DNA of 39,511 bases from a bacterium (GTDB lineage Bacteria > Desulfobacterota > Deferrisomatia > Deferrisomatales > BM512). The notes beneath the pieces were generated by a model. It was not told the origin of the DNA, did no database searches, and was given only the letters and a program-made list of their open reading frames with translations. Of the stretch, positions 1 through 39,511 are shown piece after piece. The DNA lies in NCBI GenBank assembly GCA_004322275.1, contig SCTA01000039.1, positions 1 to 39,511 of the forward strand, read 5' to 3'. Positions within the stretch are counted from its first letter, which is position 1; the number at the start of each line of letters is the position of its first letter. The position numbers and the translations under genes were made by a program.

Positions 1-176
1 GGCCCAGCCGGAACGAAGTGGTCGCGCTTTTTAAAGCGCGAGCGACGGGTCCGGGCTGAGTTTTGGGCCACCTTTTGCTCACTCAAAAGGTGGCTAGGAG
101 CGCGAGGCAAAGCCTCGCAAGGTGTAAATTGGCGGGCCGAGCCCACCCTACCACTGGATAACCCCGCCTTCGCGGG
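1..176 (-). repeat. dispersed intergenic repeat A, copy 1 (runs off left edge)
   Basis: The reverse complement of this stretch aligns over almost its whole length with 24741..24912. Shared blocks are the GC palindrome CCCGCGAAGGCGGG, a GTAGGG-type hairpin (about 134-154), TTGCGAGGCTTTGCCTCGCG, a variable hairpin built around CTTTT/AAAAG, and a block ending in TTCCGGCTGGGCC. The two copies are in opposite orientation. The hairpin arms differ between copies while base pairing is kept, so secondary structure seems to be conserved. No gene is visible before 235. The copy begins at the window edge and probably continues to the left. Confidence 0.85.
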
Positions 177-19505: not shown

Positions 19506-21398
19506 ATGGGAATCCCCACCAGCGGACAGGAGCCGATGCAGGAACCTCTCGCCCCTGAATATCCGGTGTGCGCCAAAACCCCGGGGGAACGCTCGGGGCT
19601 TCTGATGCTTCTAAGCGGGCTCTTCGGCTTTTTCCTCTTCGCCCTCGTCTTTCCGGGGGCGACGGACAACGTGGAGAGCGCCCAGGTGGTCGCGGGACTG
19701 GTCACCTACCCGCCGGGAAACCCGATGGGTATTTACCATCTCTCGGCGCTCTCGCTCCTCATAGATTCCGCCGCGCTGCTCCTCAGACTCGGCCTTCCCG
19801 AGTGGGCGGTTTGCGCTTTTTTCACGGGTTTGCAGGGAGCGCTGATCTTCTCCGGCCTGACCGGGCTCACCTTGGCGTTTTCGCGTAGCGCCTCCGTCTC
19901 GTTTCTCGTCCCGCTCCTTTTAGTCCACCTCTACCTCAACTCGAAAGCCTTCGCCTTTACGCCCCCCTATCTGCAGGCCTTCAACGGCCACGCCTACCCG
20001 ATTCTCCTGGTAAACCACCCCTACATCTACGGAACAGCCGGCCTCTTTGCCGTCCTCCTGATCTGGGGGCTTCTCGCTCACAGGAAGCTTCGCCTTGCGG
20101 GGTTTCTCGCGGGGCTGATGGTGTGGGTGCACCCCTCGATGGGCCTGGCGTGCTGGGCGGGAGCGGGGGCGGGGCTTTATTTTCTGAGGGAAGAATACGG
20201 CGGGGATGAGTTGCGCGGGCTGGCCCGCTGGTTTCTTGCCGGAATCGCGCTTTCGGCGGCGGGGATGGGGTTGCACTACCTTTTTTTCACGCCGGAAATA
20301 AAAGGAGTGGACTGGGAACTCGCCTCGCGCATCGTGGAGAATTACGAGCGCAACTGGGACACCCACCGGGTCTTCGATTCCCGCCTCGTCCTCCCCATGC
20401 TGGAGGTGGACTTTTACGCAACGGTCCTTCTTCTGGCTCTTCGCTTTTTCATTTGGGAAAAACTTCCCCAGGGGGCGAGATTTCTTTTCTACGGACTTCT
20501 GGCGATAACTGCGACGGGCGCGGCGGGCCTCGTGATTCAGGGCTATTTCCCGGAAGCCATGCCCCTTTCTGTGCGCACCTTCATGCTCCACCGCTGGCTG
20601 AACATAAATTCGATGGCTTTTCCGGCCTTGGTCTTCGGGATTCTGGGGTATTTCGGGCTCAGGGAGAAAAATCCCTTCGCCCTCGGGATGCTCCTCGCAA
20701 ACGTCATTCTCGTTTCGACCCTGACTGCGGACTCGCTGACCTGGTTTTCGCACTTCGGCTTTCCGGAAGGTCCGGGCCCGGCCTGGGAGGGGCTTCTCTT
20801 CCCCCTGCTGGGGGGAGGTTCCGTACTGTTTCTGGCCGTCACAGCCTCGGGGAAGTGGAGAATCGCAATACCTGCCGCTCCCGGCTGGCTTGCCCCTCTC
20901 GGAGCGGGGATTGTCGCGGCGGTGGCCCTCTACGTGCTGGCTTTCGGCATTCTGCCCTACTTCAGCAAGGAGCGCATGACCGGGAAGGAATGGTCGAACC
21001 CCTTCTTCGAGGACCTCTCAAGAGGAGAAGGGCTGCTTCTTCTCTCGCACCCCGATGGCCTCCGGTTCCCCCTGCGGACGCGCAGGGGGGTTCTCCTCGA
21101 TCCCGAGCAGATAGACATGTTCACCTACGCCAAAGGCGCCGCCCCGGTGATGGAGGAGATTTTCAACAGGGTGTACGGAAAAACCCTCCTTCGCCCGCGC
21201 GGCGAGGGCGAGCCGGTGCTCATTTACGACTACCTGGCCCCCGAAAACTGGGACCGGTACACGATGGCGGACTGGCAGGCGATAAGGAGGGAATATCAGG
21301 TTACGGAGGTGATAGTCCCCTTCGGCTATCAACTCCAGTTGCCTCTCTCGACGGGCCTGAAGCCTTATTTTTACGCCTACCGCATACCCGCCCCCTGA
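19506..21398 (+). CDS. large multispanning membrane protein, unknown function
   Basis: This protein has up to 630 residues, with about twelve hydrophobic helices between residues 35 and 500 and a soluble tail of roughly 130 residues (LLLLSHPDGLRFPLRTRRGVLLDPEQ...). An acidic motif after the first helix (FPGATDNVESAQVVAGL) and the overall layout recall GT-C-type membrane glycosyltransferases, but no diagnostic catalytic motif stands out. The ATG at 19506 has no ribosome site. An ATG at 19536 (MQEPLAPEYPV) is preceded by AGGAG at a short spacing and may be the true start. The gene stands alone: the next plus-strand gene starts 258 bases later. Confidence 0.65.
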   Translation: MGIPTSGQEPMQEPLAPEYPVCAKTPGERSGLLMLLSGLFGFFLFALVFPGATDNVESAQVVAGLVTYPPGNPMGIYHLSALSLLIDSAALLLRLGLPEWAVCAFFTGLQGALIFSGLTGLTLAFSRSASVSFLVPLLLVHLYLNSKAFAFTPPYLQAFNGHAYPILLVNHPYIYGTAGLFAVLLIWGLLAHRKLRLAGFLAGLMVWVHPSMGLACWAGAGAGLYFLREEYGGDELRGLARWFLAGIALSAAGMGLHYLFFTPEIKGVDWELASRIVENYERNWDTHRVFDSRLVLPMLEVDFYATVLLLALRFFIWEKLPQGARFLFYGLLAITATGAAGLVIQGYFPEAMPLSVRTFMLHRWLNINSMAFPALVFGILGYFGLREKNPFALGMLLANVILVSTLTADSLTWFSHFGFPEGPGPAWEGLLFPLLGGGSVLFLAVTASGKWRIAIPAAPGWLAPLGAGIVAAVALYVLAFGILPYFSKERMTGKEWSNPFFEDLSRGEGLLLLSHPDGLRFPLRTRRGVLLDPEQIDMFTYAKGAAPVMEEIFNRVYGKTLLRPRGEGEPVLIYDYLAPENWDRYTMADWQAIRREYQVTEVIVPFGYQLQLPLSTGLKPYFYAYRIPAP

Positions 21399-23075: not shown

Positions 23076-24730
23076 GCGGAGGGATTGTCCTCGTCTCGCC
23101 GCCGGTGGCGAAACCCTGCGAGCCCGACCCGGCGCTGCTGGTTCTCGCCGGGCATCTGCGCGAGAGGGGCTGCGAGGTCAGCGTCTGTGACGCCAACCTG
23201 GGCTTCTTCGAGGAGCTTTTATCCCCGGAAAGCCTACGGCGCTGCTACGCCGCCCCGGAAGGAAAGGAGCGCACCCGCCCGGAGGAAACCTCGGCCAGGC
23301 GCGCGGTAGGCAACGTCGCGAGGGCGCTGGAGCGGCTGAGAAACCCGGAAACTTACGAGTCCTTCGGAATTTACCGCTCCGCTCTCGGCGAGGTGGCGGA
23401 AGGGCTTCGCCTCGCCTCGCGTACCCTCGGCGTACATATTTCACTCTCCGATTTCGTCCACCCCTCCCTTTCCCCCCTCTCTTCCGAAGACCTCGCTTCG
23501 GCGGCGCGCGAGCCGGAACTTCTGGGGACGGCCGGAGCGCTCGAAAAATCCGCCGGAGAGATTCTCGCGCTTGAACCTGCCATCATCGGGATCTCCGCCT
23601 CCTTCCTTTCGCAGGCCCTTCACGGTTTCGCGCTGGCCGGGCTGCTCCGCCGGACGGGCTTCGCGGGAACCCTTCTTCTCGGCGGAGGGCTCGTCAATTC
23701 GTGGGTCAAGTGCCTTCGCCCGGAGATGGAGATATTCAAAGTCTTCGACGCAGTGGTGACGGGTCCGGGAGAAGAAGCGCTGGCAGCGATGGCGAAGGCG
23801 GGAGGGGTGACGAACGCTCCGGGGGTGCTGGCGCCGCGTTTTTTGATCTGGAATCAGCCGCCGGAGGGAGAGAAGAGGGAGGTTTCCTTCAACCCCTCCT
23901 GCGAAGGGCTGCGATGGCAAAGCTACCTCGCCCCCGCGCCGGTTCTCCCCGTCTCGGCCTCGCGCGGGTGCTACTGGGCGAAGTGCGCCTTCTGCCCCGA
24001 GGCCTCCGGCGACCGTCAGCCCTACCGCACCGCCGACGCCGGTGAACTGGTGAAAAAAATCCTCGAAGCCCGCGACAGGCACTCCATCCGCTTCGTTCAC
24101 TTCACCGACAACGCCCTCTCTCCCTCCCACCTCGGAAAGATCGCCGAAGGGCTGAGCGGGGAGGGAGTGAAATGGTACGGCTTTTCGAGGATGGAGGAGC
24201 AGCTCACCGACCCGGCCTTCATGGAGGCGCTCGCCGAGGGCGGCTGCGCCATGCTCCAGTTCGGCTTTGAATCCGCGACGAAGAGGCTTCTGGACCTTAT
24301 GAGGAAGGGTATAGACCCCGAGAGGGGCGCGAAGGTCGCTGCGCTGGCCCACCGCTTCGGAATCCGCGTCTACGGCTACTTCCTTTTCGGCCTTCCCACC
24401 GAAAGCCTGGAGGAGGCCCGCGCCACCGTCGAATGGATTAAAGAGCGCGGCGAAGAGATAACCTTCCTCAACCTCTCCCTGATGAATTTCCCGCGCGGGG
24501 GCGAGATGGAGGCCGCGCCGGAGGATTTCGGCATCGACACCCTCAGCGAGCGGGCGGGGAAAAACGACCTCTCCCTCTACCTCGACTTCGGCGGGGAAAA
24601 GACCCTTGAGCGGCGGGAGCTGCGGAGGCTCTTGGCGGAGGCAAAGCGCGACCCTGTCATAAAGAAGATTCTCCTTCGCACCCCGCCCTGGTTCTCCTCC
24701 AACCACGCTGCCTTCGCGCCGCTGCCGTAA
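23072..24730 (+). CDS. B12-binding-type radical SAM protein
   Basis: This gene encodes 552 residues. The N-terminal part (MSGGIVLVSPPVAKPCEPDPALLVLAGHLRERGCEVSVCDANLG) resembles a cobalamin-binding Rossmann domain, with the usual 'GG' strand at LLGGGLVNS. The radical SAM core begins at SASRGCYWAKCAFCPEA, with C300, C305 and C308. The spacing is CX4CX2C rather than the canonical CX3CX2C. Later motifs (HFTDNALSP, LQFGFESATKRLLDLMRKG, YGYFLFGLPTESLEEA) are normal for the superfamily. The open frame extends upstream to 22979 inside the MFS gene, but the ATG at 23072 overlapping its stop is the natural start. The substrate is unknown. Confidence 0.88.
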   Translation: MSGGIVLVSPPVAKPCEPDPALLVLAGHLRERGCEVSVCDANLGFFEELLSPESLRRCYAAPEGKERTRPEETSARRAVGNVARALERLRNPETYESFGIYRSALGEVAEGLRLASRTLGVHISLSDFVHPSLSPLSSEDLASAAREPELLGTAGALEKSAGEILALEPAIIGISASFLSQALHGFALAGLLRRTGFAGTLLLGGGLVNSWVKCLRPEMEIFKVFDAVVTGPGEEALAAMAKAGGVTNAPGVLAPRFLIWNQPPEGEKREVSFNPSCEGLRWQSYLAPAPVLPVSASRGCYWAKCAFCPEASGDRQPYRTADAGELVKKILEARDRHSIRFVHFTDNALSPSHLGKIAEGLSGEGVKWYGFSRMEEQLTDPAFMEALAEGGCAMLQFGFESATKRLLDLMRKGIDPERGAKVAALAHRFGIRVYGYFLFGLPTESLEEARATVEWIKERGEEITFLNLSLMNFPRGGEMEAAPEDFGIDTLSERAGKNDLSLYLDFGGEKTLERRELRRLLAEAKRDPVIKKILLRTPPWFSSNHAAFAPLP

Positions 24731-24740
24731 TATTCTTAGT

Positions 24741-24912
24741 ACCCGCGAAGGCGGGAATCAAGAAGAGCTGTAGGGCGGGCTCGGTCCGCCGGTTTACAGC
24801 TTGCGAGGCTTTGCCTCGCGCTCCTAGGCACTTCTTTTAGAAAGAAGTACCCAAGAAATCGGCCCGGACGCGTCGCTCGCTCTACGAGCGACCACTTCGT
24901 TCCGGCTGGGCC
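24741..24912 (+). repeat. dispersed intergenic repeat A, copy 2
   Basis: This copy matches the reverse complement of 1..176. It starts with CCCGCGAAGGCGGG, contains a GTAGGGCGGGCTCGGTCCGCC hairpin and GCGAGGCTTTGCCTCGC, and ends in TTCCGGCTGGGCC. The variable hairpin here is ACTTCTTTTAGAAAGAAGT, against a CACCTTTTG-type stem in copy 1. The right-hand extension to about 25010 may belong to the same element, because copy 1 is cut by the window edge. A 95-codon reading frame on the minus strand is an artefact of the repeat. Confidence 0.85.
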
Positions 24913-25019
24913 GTACGGGGCACCCACTGCGCTTCGCTCCGTTAAGACCCCGCGCCGGCCCGACGCCTCCACTCGTTGCGCCGCATATGGGCCATGAGGA
25001 GGACGAAAAGAAGGCTCGC

Positions 25020-25138
25020 CCAAAAGCGAAATCTCTTTGAGCTTTTGGACTCGAAGGTAAAATTTTTACACGTATGCCTTGAATAGTGTAAATAATTTAC
25101 CTTCGAGCCGATAAGTCCATATAATTTCACTTATCGGC
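25020..25138. other. cluster of three consecutive inverted repeats
   Basis: There are three adjacent palindromes. First, CCAAAAGC (25020-25027) pairs with GCTTTTGG (25041-25048). Second, a 22-base arm at 25050-25071 (starts CTCGAAGGTAAA) pairs with 25086-25107 (ends TTTACCTTCGAG) with 20 of 22 matches and a 14-base loop. Third, GCCGATAAGT (25107-25116) pairs with ACTTATCGGC (25129-25138) perfectly across 12 bases. The second and third abut at one shared base. They sit between repeats A and B at the left side of a low-GC patch. No gene is visible in 24731-25377. Confidence 0.8.
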
Positions 25139-25193
25139 GAGCTTTATTTTCGTTCCCCACGCCCTCCGGCGCCAGCGAGTGAGAGAGCGAGGG

Positions 25194-25349
25194 TGTTCCG
25201 AGCGCGCCATGAGCCCGTGGCGATTTGCGCGCTCGCCGAGCGACGAACGAGCGCCTTGGCGCAAAGGGGGCGCGCCTTTTCTTCCCACCGCTTCTTTTGG
25301 GCGGTCAAAAGAAGCGGTGTTGGGGCGCAGGGGCGAACAGCCCCGCAAC
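25194..25349 (-). repeat. dispersed intergenic repeat B, copy 1
   Basis: The reverse complement aligns with 39359..39511. Shared features are a GTTGCGGG start, a hairpin of the form CTTCTTTTG...CAAAAGAAG, a run like GGCGCGCCCCCTTTGCGCC, CTCGTTCGTCGCTCGGCGAGC, and a GCTCGGAACA end. Arm bases differ between copies while pairing is kept. A 73-codon minus-strand frame over it is an artefact. It immediately precedes a low-GC ORF. Confidence 0.82.
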
Positions 25350-25377
25350 TATAGAATTACAATAGGAGTTTCAACAA

Positions 25378-26073
25378 ATGTTGCCAAAAGAATATCGAGA
25401 TAGAATTACAATGCTTGTTCAATCGGAGATGAATTATTTTTACAGGGCAATTAATGAGAGGGATAATTCAATAACGCGACATATCGCCAGAACCGACCCA
25501 AAAGTTATTAGTGAGGCCAATTGTAAGATTATAGAAGCAGAGCACATGTTAATAAGAGTTGTTGCAGATAAATTGCTTGGTTCCATTGAGCAACTAGGTG
25601 TACCAAACAAGTGTAGCCTAGAGAAAGATTGTATCGATGAGGCGAAATATTTTATACAGGAATTAATAAAACGAGCTAATTACCCAGATAATCCAGCAGC
25701 GATAGCCTCCTGCGAGTCAATGCTTATGGCTGAGGTCGAAGGTAAAATTAGGGTATATGCAAGAGATAAGTTAAGAATAAATGAAAGAATTATTGAAAAA
25801 CAAAAATACCAGAAAGATAGTTCCGCAATCAAGGAAAGGCAAGACCAGCCGTCTCCTACTGATATTAAAAAATGGAATATATACATAAAGTCTTTGGGCA
25901 ACGAAACTATAAAGAGGCGTCTTTCTGTGCTGTTATTGCATATTCAAGGAAAACCTAGAAGTGAGATTGAAAAATCACACCCAGGGTGCAATATTTCACG
26001 CGATATAAAGAGGGCAAAAAAACATGTTCAGGAGATACGCGAAAAACGCCCAGACCTTGTGGACCTGTCCTAG
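25378..26073 (+). CDS. unknown protein, low-GC accessory gene
   Basis: This gene encodes 231 residues and is clearly AT-rich compared with its neighbours, which suggests horizontal acquisition. AGGAG lies nine bases before ATG. No signal peptide or membrane helix is seen; the protein is charged and helical. The C-terminal stretch IKRRLSVLLLHIQGKPRSEIEKSHPGCNISRDIKRAKKHVQEI has helix-turn-helix character, so a DNA-binding or phage/plasmid-type role is possible. I do not recognise the family. It is flanked upstream by repeats A and B and the hairpin cluster. Confidence 0.7.
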   Translation: MLPKEYRDRITMLVQSEMNYFYRAINERDNSITRHIARTDPKVISEANCKIIEAEHMLIRVVADKLLGSIEQLGVPNKCSLEKDCIDEAKYFIQELIKRANYPDNPAAIASCESMLMAEVEGKIRVYARDKLRINERIIEKQKYQKDSSAIKERQDQPSPTDIKKWNIYIKSLGNETIKRRLSVLLLHIQGKPRSEIEKSHPGCNISRDIKRAKKHVQEIREKRPDLVDLS

Positions 26074-26116
26074 GACACATGCACGGACAATTTTTGATAC
26101 AAACCATAACATGCTG

Positions 26117-26132
26117 TAATTATTGATAATTA
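26117..26132. promoter_or_regulatory. AT-rich perfect palindrome (possible operator)
   Basis: TAATTAT (26117-26123) and ATAATTA (26126-26132) form a perfect inverted repeat with a TG spacer in the gap between two low-GC ORFs. A second short hairpin, TGTCCG/CGGACA (26153-26158 with 26163-26168), follows. Either could be an operator or leader structure for the 79-residue ORF. Confidence 0.4.
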
Positions 26133-26227
26133 TGAAAATGGAGGTGCTCGTTTGTCCGAGGGCGGACATGCGATGATTTAGCCATGCAAAACGCAATCTC
26201 CCTATAAAAGGAGAGAAAGGTTTAAAC

Positions 26228-26467
26228 ATGGCAGCATCAAAATTTATCGAAACTCTGACAACACCCCTCAGAGAAAAACAGACCTCTTTAATCCTAAACC
26301 TGACGACAAAGGAGCTTGAATCTTCGCGTGGCCTTTTAACAAAAAGACGTGTTAAACGGGGTTGGACAAAATTTGTATACAACGTGGCCTTCCCCATAAT
26401 ATTCACGGTTTTGAAAGCCATATTAGAAAATGCCATCAACGCTTATTTGAACGGGCACGGCCTTTAA
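26228..26467 (+). CDS. 79-residue unknown protein with a C-terminal hydrophobic helix
   Basis: This is a small low-GC gene with AAAGG about seven bases before ATG. The N-terminal half is polar and helical (FIETLTTPLREKQTSLILN). A basic stretch, TKRRVKRGWTKF, is followed by a hydrophobic segment (VAFPIIFTVLKAILENAINAYL) that could be a membrane anchor. It ends 12 bases from the stop of the converging chalcone-isomerase-like gene. No family is recognised. Base composition groups it with the ORF at 25378. Confidence 0.6.
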   Translation: MAASKFIETLTTPLREKQTSLILNLTTKELESSRGLLTKRRVKRGWTKFVYNVAFPIIFTVLKAILENAINAYLNGHGL

Positions 26468-26479
26468 ATGTCCGATCTC

Positions 26480-27058
26480 CTACTCCCCCATCATCCCTCT
26501 TTTGACCTCTTCGGAGGCGGGGACGTTCCCGAGCCAGACGGAGAAGAGCGCCCGCATGAAGTCGGCCCCGCCGAACCAGCCGATAAGTTTGGCGCCGCTC
26601 AGGACGTACCCCTTTTCCACGGTGGTTCCGCCGCCGGGGGTGTAGGTTATTGTCAGCGTCGTCCGGGGGTCGAACTCGGCGTTGAAAGCTTCGAGAAGGG
26701 ACTTCATTTTCGCCTTTAATTCTTCGTCGGCCTCCGGCACGTTATCGTTGAACCCTGTTCTGATAATCCTTCGCGCATCGCCAAGTTCAAGGGTTCTTAC
26801 GAATTTGAGCTGGATCCGCTTCGGTTCGTCGGCGTTTATCGCCTCGTCGGCAGTTTTCGCGGGAGTCATAAGATAGAGGCCCGCCACGTAGACGGTTCCC
26901 AGAAGGTTTTTGTGTTCCCCCAGCCCGCGAAGGGTGAGCGTTTTGCCTTCAACGTCTACCGAATCTGCCATTTCGACCCCGCCGAGCGACGCGGCGAAAC
27001 CGTTTGCGGACAAAAAGACGAGGGCCAGAACCGCTAAAAATCCGAGGAGCTTTTTCAC
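26480..27058 (-). CDS. chalcone isomerase-like exported protein
   Basis: This 192-residue protein has a signal peptide (MKKLLGFLAVLALVFLSANGFAA). Family features include the LRGLGEHKNLLGTVYVAGLYL strand pair, LKFVRTLELGDARRIIRTGFNDN and the ending FMRALFSVWLGNVPASEEVKRGMMG. These match the bacterial chalcone-isomerase-like fold (Pfam Chalcone_2 type). Most bacterial members are not true chalcone isomerases and may bind fatty acids or other small ligands in the periplasm. The gene stands alone, divergent from ilvE. Confidence 0.88.
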   Translation of the reverse strand: MKKLLGFLAVLALVFLSANGFAASLGGVEMADSVDVEGKTLTLRGLGEHKNLLGTVYVAGLYLMTPAKTADEAINADEPKRIQLKFVRTLELGDARRIIRTGFNDNVPEADEELKAKMKSLLEAFNAEFDPRTTLTITYTPGGGTTVEKGYVLSGAKLIGWFGGADFMRALFSVWLGNVPASEEVKRGMMGE

Positions 27059-30921: not shown

Positions 30922-30997
30922 GGGCCGTTAGCTCAACCGGTAGAGCAAGTGACTCTTAATCACTAGGTTCGGTGTTCGATCCACCGACGGCTCACCA
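30922..30997 (+). tRNA. tRNA-Lys (anticodon CTT)
   Basis: The 76-base cloverleaf has acceptor stem GGGCCGT/ACGGCTC (one G-T pair), D arm GCTC/GAGC, anticodon stem AGTGA/TCACT with loop CTCTTAA (anticodon CTT, reads AAG), T arm CGGTG/CACCG with TTCGATC loop, and an encoded CCA end. Confidence 0.97.
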
Positions 30998-31008
30998 CGA
31001 AATCCAAA

Positions 31009-31045
31009 CCGGGCACTTCGCACAACGCGGAGTGCCCGGTTTTTT
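31009..31045 (+). terminator. rho-independent terminator of tRNA-Lys
   Basis: CCGGGCACT (31009-31017) pairs with AGTGCCCGG (31031-31039), with further pairing towards the loop, followed by a run of six T (31040-31045). It lies 11 bases after the tRNA. Confidence 0.93.
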
Positions 31046-31445
31046 ATTGCCGCCAGTCCTTCTATCGCCGCATTGCTCCCGCACATGACCGCTGTGTTGC
31101 CACAATTCACCGCAAATCACCGCCAAAGATTTTTAGGGAAATTTTCAGCGGCATGGAGTATTTTGGGACAACTAGAAAGTGAGCACGGGCGCTGTAAAGC
31201 GGACAATTACAGTAGTTTATCCTCTGCCCGTGTATTTTGAGCCCCCCGTGTTGTCCCCCGTGTTACCGAATCGGGGGAAGCTGGGACTAATGACAGACAG
31301 GCAAAAACGATCCTAGCATTGCGCAAGTGGTTTTTATCACATATAGTTGAACTGTCTCAGGTTAAAACAAAGCCGTTGCACAGCTTCCCAGATCCGGAGA
31401 CTTTAAAACAACTGCTTAGCCACAGAGTGTTTCAAAGGAGAAATT
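31046..31445. other. gene-free gap after tRNA-Lys
   Basis: No supported gene is seen in these 400 bases. Base composition falls towards the low-GC lipoprotein gene. A short tandem CCCCCGTGTT repeat occurs near 31241-31264. The promoter of the lipoprotein gene should lie here but was not identified with confidence. Confidence 0.5.
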
Positions 31446-33959
31446 TTGAAAAAACTAATGGCCGCACTTTTGATTTTAACGCTAGCTTACACTCTGACCG
31501 CCTGCGGTGGTGGGGGCGGAGGAGGAAGTGAAGCCCCAAGATCGGCAGCCATTAAAGGCACTGTCGTTAGCTCTTCTGACCTTTCGGCTGCAAGGGGAGG
31601 TTTGGGGCTAATTGTAAATGGAAAGTACTCAGTACCTGGGGCAGTCTGCACACTTGAAGGCACTGATAAGAGTGGAATAACAGACATCGAAGGCAATTTC
31701 ACGATAAACGGCGTCGGAAATGGTAGCTATATCCTCATCTGTAAAAAAGAACTCTCCACTGGCGACGTTCTCGTCGCTCTTCAGATTCTTGAGGTTACCA
31801 AGGACGGAACTGACAGCAATACAGTCAATCTAGGAACCATAGAGATTTCAGCGGAAGGCACAATAGTTGGCAAAGCGTTACTAATCGGCCAATCTGAACA
31901 TACGGGCATAAAAATCTATGTGCCAGGCACTTCATTTCAAGCCAACACTGATGCAACTGGAGCTTTCAAGCTAGACCTTCCGGCCGGAACCTATGACCTC
32001 GTTGTTGAAAAGACCGGGTACACTTATCAGAATCTAGTCGGAATTATGGTAAAGCCCGGACGTACTACGGATATAGGGGTACTGCCCCTGAGTGTCTCAA
32101 TCGGGCCGTCCGGCAGCGTCTCGATCAATAACGGAGCCGAGCTTTCAGACTCAGAGACAGTTACGCTGTCCATTACCCATTCCGCTGATGCTTCTCTAAT
32201 GAAAATCAGCGAAAAAGCCGACTTCTCCGATGTCGCTTCCTGGGAACCAGTTGCCGAAGCCAAGGATTACACGTTTGCATCGGGCGGGTTGAAGACCATA
32301 TATATAATTTTTGAAAACGCCGATGGACTTGAAAGTGGAATATCCTCAGACTCCATTAATCTAAATATCGATGCTCCGATTGCGGCAACACTATTGGTAA
32401 ACGCACCGCAGAACACGCCTGTCAGTATCACCCTTTCTGCCACCGACCCAGACGGGGTGACAGATTTCAACTTTTCCATCATCTCGCCTCCCGTAAACGG
32501 TGCACTATCCGTTATTCCCAATGAATCCAGAGAGTCAGTCGTAGTCACCTACACTCCGAACGCCGGTTTTTATGGCTATGACAGCTTCACCTACATGGCA
32601 AGCGATGGCTTAAAAGAAGATTCTGCAATCATTGAAATATCAGTTATGGCCACGTGGTATGAAGATAAAGATGGCGACGGTTACACATCCGGCCTAACAT
32701 TGACTTCCACTAGCCCGCCCGGGGGATATGTATTGTCAACATCGCTTGTTAATACAACCTCTGTTGACTGTAATGACCTTTCTCCATTCATTAATCCCGA
32801 AGAAGTAGAAATTTGTGACGGAGTAGATAACGACTGCTCAGGGGGAATTGACGACGGTCTTGTTCCGCCTCTGGCAGAAGAACAGCTCGGCGTATGCTCT
32901 GGCGCCACCAAACTTTGCAGCGGTGCAAGCGGATGGGAAGAGCCGGATTATTTTATTTTCTCAAGTGAGTATGAGTCATCCGAAACCAACTGCGACTCAA
33001 AGGACAATGATTGCGACGGGCAGATTGACGAAGGACTGCTGACCGAATACTGGCTTGATCTGGACGGTGACTCCTACGGCGACCCATTGAATAATACCAA
33101 TTCTTGCACTCAATCCGCTACATACGTCTTGAACTCCAACGATTGCGATGATTCCGAAACATTGGTTAATCCTGGCGCCTATGAAATTGACAATGGAATA
33201 GACGACGATTGCGACGGGCAGGTAGACGAGATGGCGGTGGGGGATATCTATGTGGAACCAAAGACAGGCTTTAAATTCTCATGGGTTCCGCCAGGAAGTT
33301 TTCAGATGGGAGACACTTATGGCGACGGAAATCCAAATGAGCTACCTGTGCATACTGTTACCTTTTCAAAAGGCTTCTGGATGGGCACCTATGAAATAAC
33401 ACAGGAGCAATGGAAGGCATTTATGGGTAATAACCCAAGCTATTACAAAAGTTCTTCTCCGGGCTTGCCCATTGAACAGGTTAGCTTGTACGATATAATT
33501 GAATTCATTGGGGAACTTAAACTGAAAACCGGAGTCGCCTTTCGCCTACCAAGCGAAGCAGAGTGGGAGTACGCCGCCAAGGGAGCGCAATACTCCGGCA
33601 CAAAATACTCAGGGACCAGCGACCAGTCCATGCTGCTAGATTACGCCTGGTTTCAACCATACTCTCCAGTTACCTCTGCTGGTTCTACGCATCCGGTAGG
33701 ACAAAAACTACCAAACGCCCTTGGGCTTTATGATATGAGCGGTAATGTCATGGAATGGGTGGAGGACTATTATTCCTCCTCCTATAGCTTAGCGCCAACG
33801 GACGGCAGTGCTTGGGGAGATGGTTCCCAAGGCTGGGCAATTGCGCGCGGCGGAGATTGGTACAGTATAAGCAAATATGTGCGCACTACATGGCGATTTT
33901 CAACAAGTCCAAGCCAGAGGAACCGATATATTGGATTGAGATTTGTTATAGAACCATAA
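31446..33959 (+). CDS. multidomain surface lipoprotein with MopE-like motifs and an FGE-sulfatase domain
   Basis: This is an 837-residue exported lipoprotein. The TTG start has AAGGAG six bases upstream. The signal is MKKLMAALLILTLAYTLTAC with the lipobox LTAC, then a glycine spacer. Residues 35-210 hold two carboxypeptidase-regulatory/CnaB-like beta domains (GITDIEGNFTINGVGNGSY, ATGAFKLDLPAGTYDLVVEKTGY). A cadherin/Ig-like domain follows (YTPNAGFYGYDSFTYMASDG). Next come repeated calcium-type motifs like those of MopE (DKDGDGY, CDGVDNDCSGGIDDG, CDSKDNDCDGQIDEG, IDDDCDGQVDE). The C-terminus is an FGE-sulfatase fold (PGSFQMGD, LPSEAEWEYAA, GLYDMSGNVMEWVED, ARGGDW). GC content is clearly lower than its surroundings, suggesting transfer. 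Adhesion or metal binding at the cell surface is likely; formylglycine-generating activity is doubtful. Confidence 0.9.
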   Translation: MKKLMAALLILTLAYTLTACGGGGGGGSEAPRSAAIKGTVVSSSDLSAARGGLGLIVNGKYSVPGAVCTLEGTDKSGITDIEGNFTINGVGNGSYILICKKELSTGDVLVALQILEVTKDGTDSNTVNLGTIEISAEGTIVGKALLIGQSEHTGIKIYVPGTSFQANTDATGAFKLDLPAGTYDLVVEKTGYTYQNLVGIMVKPGRTTDIGVLPLSVSIGPSGSVSINNGAELSDSETVTLSITHSADASLMKISEKADFSDVASWEPVAEAKDYTFASGGLKTIYIIFENADGLESGISSDSINLNIDAPIAATLLVNAPQNTPVSITLSATDPDGVTDFNFSIISPPVNGALSVIPNESRESVVVTYTPNAGFYGYDSFTYMASDGLKEDSAIIEISVMATWYEDKDGDGYTSGLTLTSTSPPGGYVLSTSLVNTTSVDCNDLSPFINPEEVEICDGVDNDCSGGIDDGLVPPLAEEQLGVCSGATKLCSGASGWEEPDYFIFSSEYESSETNCDSKDNDCDGQIDEGLLTEYWLDLDGDSYGDPLNNTNSCTQSATYVLNSNDCDDSETLVNPGAYEIDNGIDDDCDGQVDEMAVGDIYVEPKTGFKFSWVPPGSFQMGDTYGDGNPNELPVHTVTFSKGFWMGTYEITQEQWKAFMGNNPSYYKSSSPGLPIEQVSLYDIIEFIGELKLKTGVAFRLPSEAEWEYAAKGAQYSGTKYSGTSDQSMLLDYAWFQPYSPVTSAGSTHPVGQKLPNALGLYDMSGNVMEWVEDYYSSSYSLAPTDGSAWGDGSQGWAIARGGDWYSISKYVRTTWRFSTSPSQRNRYIGLRFVIEP

Positions 33960-33972
33960 CAACTAGAATTAT

Positions 33973-34005
33973 GGAAAGGCGGGATAATTGGTCTCAAGCC
34001 TTTCC
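33973..34005 (+). other. hairpin after the lipoprotein gene
   Basis: GGAAAGGC (33973-33980) pairs perfectly with GCCTTTCC (33998-34005) across 17 bases. It follows the stop codon by 13 bases and could act as a weak terminator or protect the mRNA 3' end; no T run follows. Confidence 0.4.
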
Positions 34006-34057
34006 AAAAGCTTGCATCAGAGGCGATTCGGGCGGTTATTCAAGGCAGTTCAGTCGT

Positions 34058-34079
34058 GTAGGATGGGTTTTAGCCCATC
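34058..34079 (+). repeat. GTAGGATGGG palindromic repeat, copy 1
   Basis: GATGGG (34062-34067) and CCCATC (34074-34079) pair around a TTTTAG loop region. The same element, GTAGGATGGG..AGCCCATC, recurs at 39307-39328, and related GTAGGG forms lie inside both copies of repeat A. It looks like a REP-type palindrome. Confidence 0.7.
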
Positions 34080-34139
34080 AAATTTACAGTGCATCTCCAC
34101 GTTCCCACATCCGCCGCCGATTGCTTACCGCGAATCAGC

Positions 34140-34176
34140 AAGGGGTTACAGGTTTCGGCCTGTAGCCCCTTTTTTG
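34140..34176 (+). terminator. rho-independent terminator
   Basis: GGGGTTACAGG (34142-34152) pairs with CCTGTAGCCCC (34159-34169), one G-T wobble, followed by six or more T. The outer sequence resembles the terminator at 18704. It can end transcripts from the lipoprotein gene. Confidence 0.9.
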
Positions 34177-34207
34177 TTCCACCTCACTCCGGTAATTCAC
34201 ACAAAAC

Positions 34208-34241
34208 AAAAGGGCCAGGCTCGAAAGCCTGACCCTTTGTT
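34208..34241 (-). terminator. terminator of tRNA-Phe (probably bidirectional)
   Basis: An imperfect stem (AAAGGGCCAGGCT with AGCCTGACCCTTT, CGAA loop) lies just beyond the 3' end of the tRNA on the minus strand and is followed there by TTTTGTTTTG. Confidence 0.8.
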
Positions 34242-34246
34242 TTTAT

Positions 34247-34322
34247 TGGTGGGCAGAGACGGAATTGAACCGCCGACACGGGGATTTTCAGTCCCCTGCT
34301 CTACCGACTGAGCTACCTGCCC
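34247..34322 (-). tRNA. tRNA-Phe (anticodon GAA)
   Basis: The 76-base cloverleaf on the minus strand has acceptor GGGCAGG/TCTGCCC (one G-T pair), D arm GCTC/GAGC, anticodon stem GGGGA/TCCCC with loop CTGAAAA (anticodon GAA), T arm GGCGG/CCGTC-type with TTCAATT loop, and an encoded CCA. Confidence 0.96.
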
Positions 34323-39328: not shown

Positions 39329-39358
39329 GAATATAAAAAACTATAATGTAATTAAATG

Positions 39359-39511
39359 GTTGCGGGCTGCCCGCCCGCACCCGGCCCCATTTCTTTTGAG
39401 CGACCAAAAGAAATGGGGGAAAGAAAAGTCGCGCTCCCTTTGTGCCCAAAGCTCGCTCGTTCGTCGCTCGGCGAGCTCATATTCGCTGCGGCTCAGAATG
39501 AGCTCGGAACA
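39359..39511 (+). repeat. dispersed intergenic repeat B, copy 2 (runs off right edge)
   Basis: This copy aligns with the reverse complement of 25194..25349. It has a GTTGCGGG start, the hairpin CCCCATTTCTTTTG/CAAAAGAAATGGGG, a GTCGCGCTCCCTTTG run, CTCGTTCGTCGCTCGGCGAGC and a CTCGGAACA end. No gene is visible from 39311 to the window end. Confidence 0.82.

Follow-up and report, generated by a model that had tools for sequence, protein, structure and literature searches.

Bacterial palindromic repeats have usually been treated as single hairpins or pairs of hairpins. MITEs with strong secondary structure, such as YPAL and ERIC, are short, non-coding and intergenic, occur in many copies and form stable hairpins. 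Di Nocera et al. (2013, PMC3733652) describe GTAG- and CGTC-tagged REPs as dispersed intergenic palindromes of 20–40 bp that lie mostly between unidirectional and convergent ORFs and downstream of genes. RAYT transposases are regarded as the probable mobilisers of GTAG REPs, according to that paper and to PMC8266576. REPINs, which go with RAYT/TnpA-REP, are outlined in PMC3116915 and PMC8266576 as inverted palindromic units with a predicted ssDNA fold, non-autonomous and spreading within a genome. The abstract of Cozzuto et al. (2008, PMC2267715) reports 92 families of stem-loop repeats from 40 genomes. The unit at the locus described here is larger, and its parts are exchanged without loss of a four-way fold. 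The locus lies in the window, by which we mean the whole 39,511-nucleotide stretch of DNA that was analysed, in a genome (G000) of 2,882,786 bases (2.88 Mb) assembled in 45 contigs.

Four-way core of a longer element

A sequence-only reading of the window had drawn attention to three abutting hairpins. All three were borne out, with 20/22, 10/10 and 8/8 complementary bases, and a fourth helix that the reading had missed, a closing stem, encloses them. Because the closing stem encloses three folded hairpins, the block is a four-way junction, or cloverleaf, of closing stem, side hairpin a, central hairpin and side hairpin b. Its features are as follows (no strand was assigned to features listed without one, here and below).

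25003..25018, plus strand: closing stem, 5' side; pairs at 14/16 positions with 25138-25153
25020..25048: side hairpin a (the third palindrome; arms 25020-25027 and 25041-25048, 8/8 match); stem CCAAAAGC/GCTTTTGG; typed A, with a loop like that of type B
25050..25107: central hairpin (arms 25050-25071 and 25086-25107, 20/22 match); nearly invariant base CTCGAAGGTA...TACCTTCGAG
25107..25138: side hairpin b (the second palindrome, starting on the last base of the first; arms 25107-25116 and 25129-25138, 10/10 match); type E, CCGATAAG; first and last bases shared with the neighbouring stems
25138..25153, plus strand: closing stem, 3' side

The general layout of the core is GGCTCG - side hairpin - CTCGAAGGTA ... 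TACCTTCGAG - side hairpin - CGAGCC. The window copy is intermediate in that it combines the side stem CCAAAAGC/GCTTTTGG with a loop of the AACAAAAGC type. Between positions 20001 and 30000 of the window, 22-base arm pairs with at least 20 matches had one placement and perfect stems of at least 10 bases had six, and three first-order Markov resamplings of this 10-kb segment gave 0 and 0 for both of these larger classes each time. Folded as DNA, the 165-nt core reached -42.9 kcal/mol (z -9.4; 0/200 dinucleotide shuffles as good), and its minus strand folded as RNA gave a z of -9.6 (again 0/200 shuffles as good). The cloverleaf was not the minimum-energy fold everywhere: for the minus strand of the window copy, as RNA, and for copies such as L011, L017 and L025, the prediction was one long rod, formed by pairing between the two side hairpins.

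The three hairpins proved to be the core of a non-coding element of approximately 600–630 bp (about 24740-25371, outer limits approximate), which is about five times longer than the block first noted. These limits of homology were obtained by comparing the surroundings of 39 other places, and the outer limits vary between copies. The element (24740..25371) folds at -313.3 kcal/mol, compared with -238.2 (sd 7.3) for 20 shuffles, and no coding content is conserved with it. The element, the insertion that contains it and the related features of the window are listed below.

24731..26479: whole insertion, between two convergent genes; relatives have almost nothing there
24740..25371: dispersed multi-hairpin element; homology to other copies runs across the stretch
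24770..24791, plus strand: outer REP-like hairpin with its GTAG tag outward, as read from the sequence
24793..25002: left arm, type B2
24803-24809/24813-24819 and 24830-24837/24841-24848: two arm hairpins
25154..25371: type A right arm; contains a perfect 14-bp hairpin (25286-25319) and, at about 25330-25344, a GC hairpin
25378..26073, plus strand: accessory ORF of 231 aa in the same insertion as the element; no Pfam match
26228..26467, plus strand: accessory ORF of 79 aa, same insertion as the element
1..151, minus strand: arm of a further copy, at one end of the contig
39344..39511, minus strand: arm of a further copy, at the opposite end of the contig

On each side of the core lies an arm of some 220–260 bases that carries further hairpins in alternative self-complementary versions; the arm hairpins at 24803..24848, for example, are replaced in other copies by different but still self-complementary versions. 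Left and right arm types differed in all 22 copies with both arms typed. The core bears no GTAG tag, and only the outer hairpins fit the GTAG REP pattern. An outward GTAG-tagged hairpin was located 234–319 bases from the core in 16 of the 44 arms long enough to test (15 of these 16 at 234–260 bases), compared with 1 for the inward-tag control, and only some copies carry such hairpins on both arms.

A second small palindrome, CCCGCGAAGGCGGG, is located at 24742-24759 of the window, between the radical-SAM gene and the GTAG hairpin; we take it to resemble the widespread ATTCCCGC-type repeat. The arms of L011, L016, L017 and L019 contain an extra, very roughly, 130–170 bases at a corresponding place, with ends that read as complementary.

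Copies, genomic setting and distribution

A 161-base query produced 70 matching stretches in the genome, many of which matched on both strands owing to its nearly palindromic sequence. A covariance model (R1) of 24 cores recognised at least 61 distinct places (E≤0.01), a count for which 150 of 859 first-look candidates were scored and which includes many truncated copies. Further genomic copies, which the sequence-only reading had suggested looking for, were thus numerous and dispersed, and the block was neither single-copy nor unconserved. Eighteen of the 61 scored places lay within 450 bp of a contig end, compared with 0.86 expected, and both ends of the window are themselves arms of other copies, indicating that the assembly breaks on the element. 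No two aligned cores were identical (best 95%, median 71%), and therefore no recent jump was seen. These aligned cores (alignment A1) are 24 of the 25 complete ones, partial copies (L029, L034, L038 and L040 among them) having been excluded from the core set; L045 was left out of the alignment for a long insert in its central loop. In that copy (on G000:C25; core at 631-853 of L045), a pair of REP-like palindromes (TGTAGGGTGCGTTAGGC...) sits within the central-hairpin loop, as though a jumping repeat had landed at the cloverleaf's tip.

The genomic setting was assessed in an unbiased sample of twenty 20-kb stretches (400 kb), in which seven places of the element fell into six convergent gaps, one divergent gap and no tandem gap, against a background of 308 gaps of which 31 were convergent and 244 tandem. 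Among the places with a gene called on both sides (n=26), 19 were convergent, 5 tandem and 2 divergent; they belong to a set of 45 of the 61 places, of which 18 others had a gene called on only one side or none and 1 came without its surrounding sequence. The gene calls rely on codon usage trained on the window, so that accessory genes are under-called.

This setting would suit a structured RNA in the 3' ends of both convergent transcripts, acting as a two-way barrier that stabilises the messages or stops read-through. Six of the seven sampled places lie between convergent genes, and a flanking gene in the congener G001 that lacks the element is followed instead, as far as its sequence can be read, by an apparent ordinary hairpin terminator. 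Most convergent gaps, however, do without the element (6/31 have it), and the pairing data below weigh further on this explanation.

The radical-SAM gene of the window has its end at 24730, and 1749 bp separate it from the host gene that follows, at 26480-27058 on the minus strand. The same two genes are neighbours in G001 (same genus) and in G004 and G002 (same family), where the aligned protein ends are 5, 36 and 45 bp apart, respectively; in G001 the two flanking ORFs overlap. The order MFS - radical SAM - 26480-27058 gene - aminotransferase is common to the window and these three genomes. At this one locus the site is occupied in the window and empty in 3/3 relatives. At the C9:13059 locus the relatives' sequence stops shortly beyond the gene, and the C41:43271 locus is rearranged in the relatives; in G001 a different gene comes after the left gene of that locus, and the element is missing. 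Of the candidates named by the sequence-only reading, a non-autonomous palindromic element was best supported, by the many dispersed copies, the empty site in three relatives and the lack of conserved coding content. Against a mobile element we count that no target-site duplication or sharp end has been demonstrated and that the clean empty site comes from one locus only.

Accessory genes adjoin several copies. An AT-rich ORF of 754 aa (L105:2089-4353, G000:C15), with the Pfam domains nSTAND3 and Mrr_cat, lies between two core places, C15:81394 and C15:83784, and looks like a putative defence gene. A 387-aa ORF with HSDR_N matches (L104:3233-4396, G000:C5) is located beside another copy. Elsewhere in the window, tRNA genes at 30922-30994 (plus strand) and 34250-34322 (minus strand) flank an 837-aa ORF with several AT-rich stretches, and 30922-34322 is a possible accessory region next to tRNAs.

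Integron attC is a folded site recombined in an integrase-dependent manner through RYYYAAC/GTTRRRY cores. Roughly like such gene cassettes with their folded site, the palindromic element and one adjacent AT-rich accessory gene might move together as a unit. The window insertion, which consists of the element and two ORFs, agrees with this arrangement, as do several other copies that adjoin a single AT-rich ORF and the 754-aa ORF between two core places. Many copies, on the other hand, have no such gene, and the accessory proteins that were compared differ in size and Pfam content. In the unbiased sample, AT-rich stretches were found in 3/6 convergent gaps with the element and in 3/5 wide convergent gaps without it; because the rates are similar, we keep a cassette-like unit only as a very unlikely alternative. 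The integration or replication site that had also been suggested received no positive support, as AT-rich neighbours were not commoner beside the element, and a replication origin is hard to reconcile with dozens of scattered copies.

Across 12 genomes of the order, the model matched only in its own genome and in G001, which contains at least four copies on three contigs. These share the plan in which a closing stem surrounds one side hairpin, the CTCGAAGGTA hairpin and a second side hairpin, but their central hairpin is short and their side hairpins are others (CAAATCTTTTGATTTG and GC-rich sequences). Since the plan is kept with other sequences, the architecture has outlived the sequence. A query with the B2 arm matched the own genome only, whereas queries with other arms matched G001. 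In 148 genomes of the phylum, the model matched only its own genome at E≤1e-4, among the 22 candidates scored per listed genome and under strict filters that could miss weak relatives. No match to the element was found in plasmids and phages. The exact central pattern occurred in four stretches of genome_contigs, which we attribute to chance because about 7 are expected for 20 fixed bases and 31 spacings in 257 billion bases, and in none of viral_contigs. In the open-access literature, which leaves most subscription journals outside, we recognised no paper describing the element. The element is a species-amplified, genus-restricted, cloverleaf-cored palindromic repeat.

Pairing and exchange of the hairpins

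In A1, 97.5% of 961 cells were paired, whereas shuffles reached 89.0% (sd 0.6) and slid partners no more than 43.5%; the structure was drawn on A1 itself, so the 97.5% leans towards it, and cells count copies, not events. Two-sided changes were found in 78 cells, compared with 22.5 (sd 4.6) in shuffles, and derive from a few hairpin types, not from 78 separate events. Further pair types showed no excess (28 vs 28.2 in shuffles). The inner six pairs of the closing stem were kept in 23 or 24 of 24 copies. Closing and central stems were nearly invariant, with an entropy of 0.06 bits per column each, and covariation shows nothing about them, whereas the side stems and loops vary.

Dispersed copies with such nearly invariant central and closing stems, which two species of the genus share although the remainder has changed, could also be expected of a chromosome-organising or protein-binding site, that is, of folded or palindromic DNA read by a host protein. 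We consider this most improbable, since the family is restricted to one genus in the searches made, many copies are truncated and no known binding protein was identified.

A selected RNA is expected to tolerate G.U pairs but not A.C mismatches. On the modelled strand, G.U cells (15) hardly exceeded A.C cells (9), and outside the inner central stem the two were equal (6 vs 6), so that no RNA-type wobble tolerance is seen on this strand; transcription of both strands would blur the signal. In the side-hairpin stems of 25 copies, 434 of 450 cells were Watson-Crick pairs, 14 were unpaired and 2 were G.U. An Rfam 15 scan of the window returned, above the gathering score, two tRNAs only and no match for the element. 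These results bear on the RNA barrier between convergent genes. The core folds strongly as DNA and, on its minus strand, as RNA, and its hairpins covary; the element belongs to no Rfam family, no U-runs are read after the hairpins, and G.U pairs are scarce, particularly in the side hairpins. We regard the barrier as unlikely. The structured RNA put forward from the sequence alone gained no support from Rfam or from the G.U count.

PMC8794818 raises the question of template switching versus selection for perfect hairpins in RNA genes, and states that template switching can copy one arm onto the other in a single event. Template switching would account for the scarcity of wobble intermediates, as would gene conversion or strong selection. 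Dozens of copies with hardly any wobble intermediates thus provide a natural data set on whether selection or a mutational process maintains perfect hairpins.

Five types of side hairpin were distinguished, with the stems CCAAAAAC, AACAAAAGC, CACACGAG, CAAATGAGC and CCGATAAG. Three of them (A, B and C) were seen on either side, mirrored when they change side: type A was found 20 times as side hairpin a and once as side hairpin b, type B 3 and 5 times, and type C 1 and 7 times. When described by their two arms, their two side hairpins and a crude class of inner loop, the 25 complete cores represented 19 distinct combinations, and several module pairs showed all four combinations. Recombination or gene conversion between copies would be a simple explanation of this mosaicism.

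A further-reaching reading is that of a mobile cruciform DNA family whose machinery reads the folded shape, not the sequence. Side hairpins would then be interchangeable cassettes between conserved CTCG/CGAG joints, and copies would diversify hairpin by hairpin with the four-way junction kept even between species. We hold this to be distinctly improbable as a whole.

Mobilisation and comparison with described systems

The locus probably carries a copy of a mobile element that is palindromic, non-coding and non-autonomous, measures about 600 bp and is dispersed in the genome. The element would be private to the species, with a diverged form in at least one congener; its pairing would be kept at the DNA level and its copies shuffled by recombination. 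The data suggest a selfish repeat that preserves the shape of its folded DNA. It would have multiplied by placing copies of itself elsewhere in the genome, most plausibly in the form of folded single-stranded DNA. The mobiliser may have been an HUH/Y1-type transposase (TnpA-REP/RAYT-like) that read the outward-GTAG hairpins and is now missing from the genome; the hairpins point to a Y1-type enzyme because GTAG REPs are regarded as probably RAYT-mobilised. Survival would be mainly between convergent genes, where insertions presumably break no gene or promoter. Pairing might be kept by DNA-level processes, namely template switching or gene conversion between arms, perhaps aided by selection on the folded form. 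Hairpins and arms could be swapped when copies recombine within the CTCG/CTCGAAGGTA stretches that they share.

The Y1 transposase family (PF01797) had 0 matches in the own genome, whereas the control matched 5/14 genomes. In the order, PF01797 was present in 9 of 12 genomes, with one match each in G002 and G003, and absent from G000, G001 and G004. The proposed mobiliser would accordingly be absent from these three, and the family may be a stranded population. The element is thus a case for how folded DNA spreads in a genome without a detected Y1 transposase.

Comparison with the described systems places the element close to several of them. GTAG/CGTC REPs are likewise dispersed intergenic palindromes with several families per genome, and the outer ends of the element carry outward GTAG hairpins; REPs measure 20–40 bp, whereas the element has about 600 bp, an untagged cloverleaf core and swapped hairpin types. 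REPINs share its palindromic, non-autonomous nature and its spread within a genome, but the genome here has no detected Y1 transposase and the spacer is much longer and made of several hairpins. Against the features of GTAG REPs and REPINs, the element was dispersed, intergenic and multi-copy; it was not a 20–40-bp tagged palindrome with a resident Y1 transposase. Stem-loop repeat families (PMC2267715), as characterised in that abstract, resemble it in a shared predicted secondary structure and a location between genes. Mitochondrial mobile double-hairpin elements are also small mobile DNAs made of hairpins, but they are organellar and, by their name, have two hairpins instead of a closed four-way core. 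Like MITEs, the element is non-coding, shorter than about 1 kb, multi-copy and intergenic and folds into hairpins; it differs in the modular exchange of covarying hairpins, and is at most MITE-like. Tag, size and the lack of a resident transposase set the element apart from REPs, but it works like a MITE or a REPIN-like repeat.
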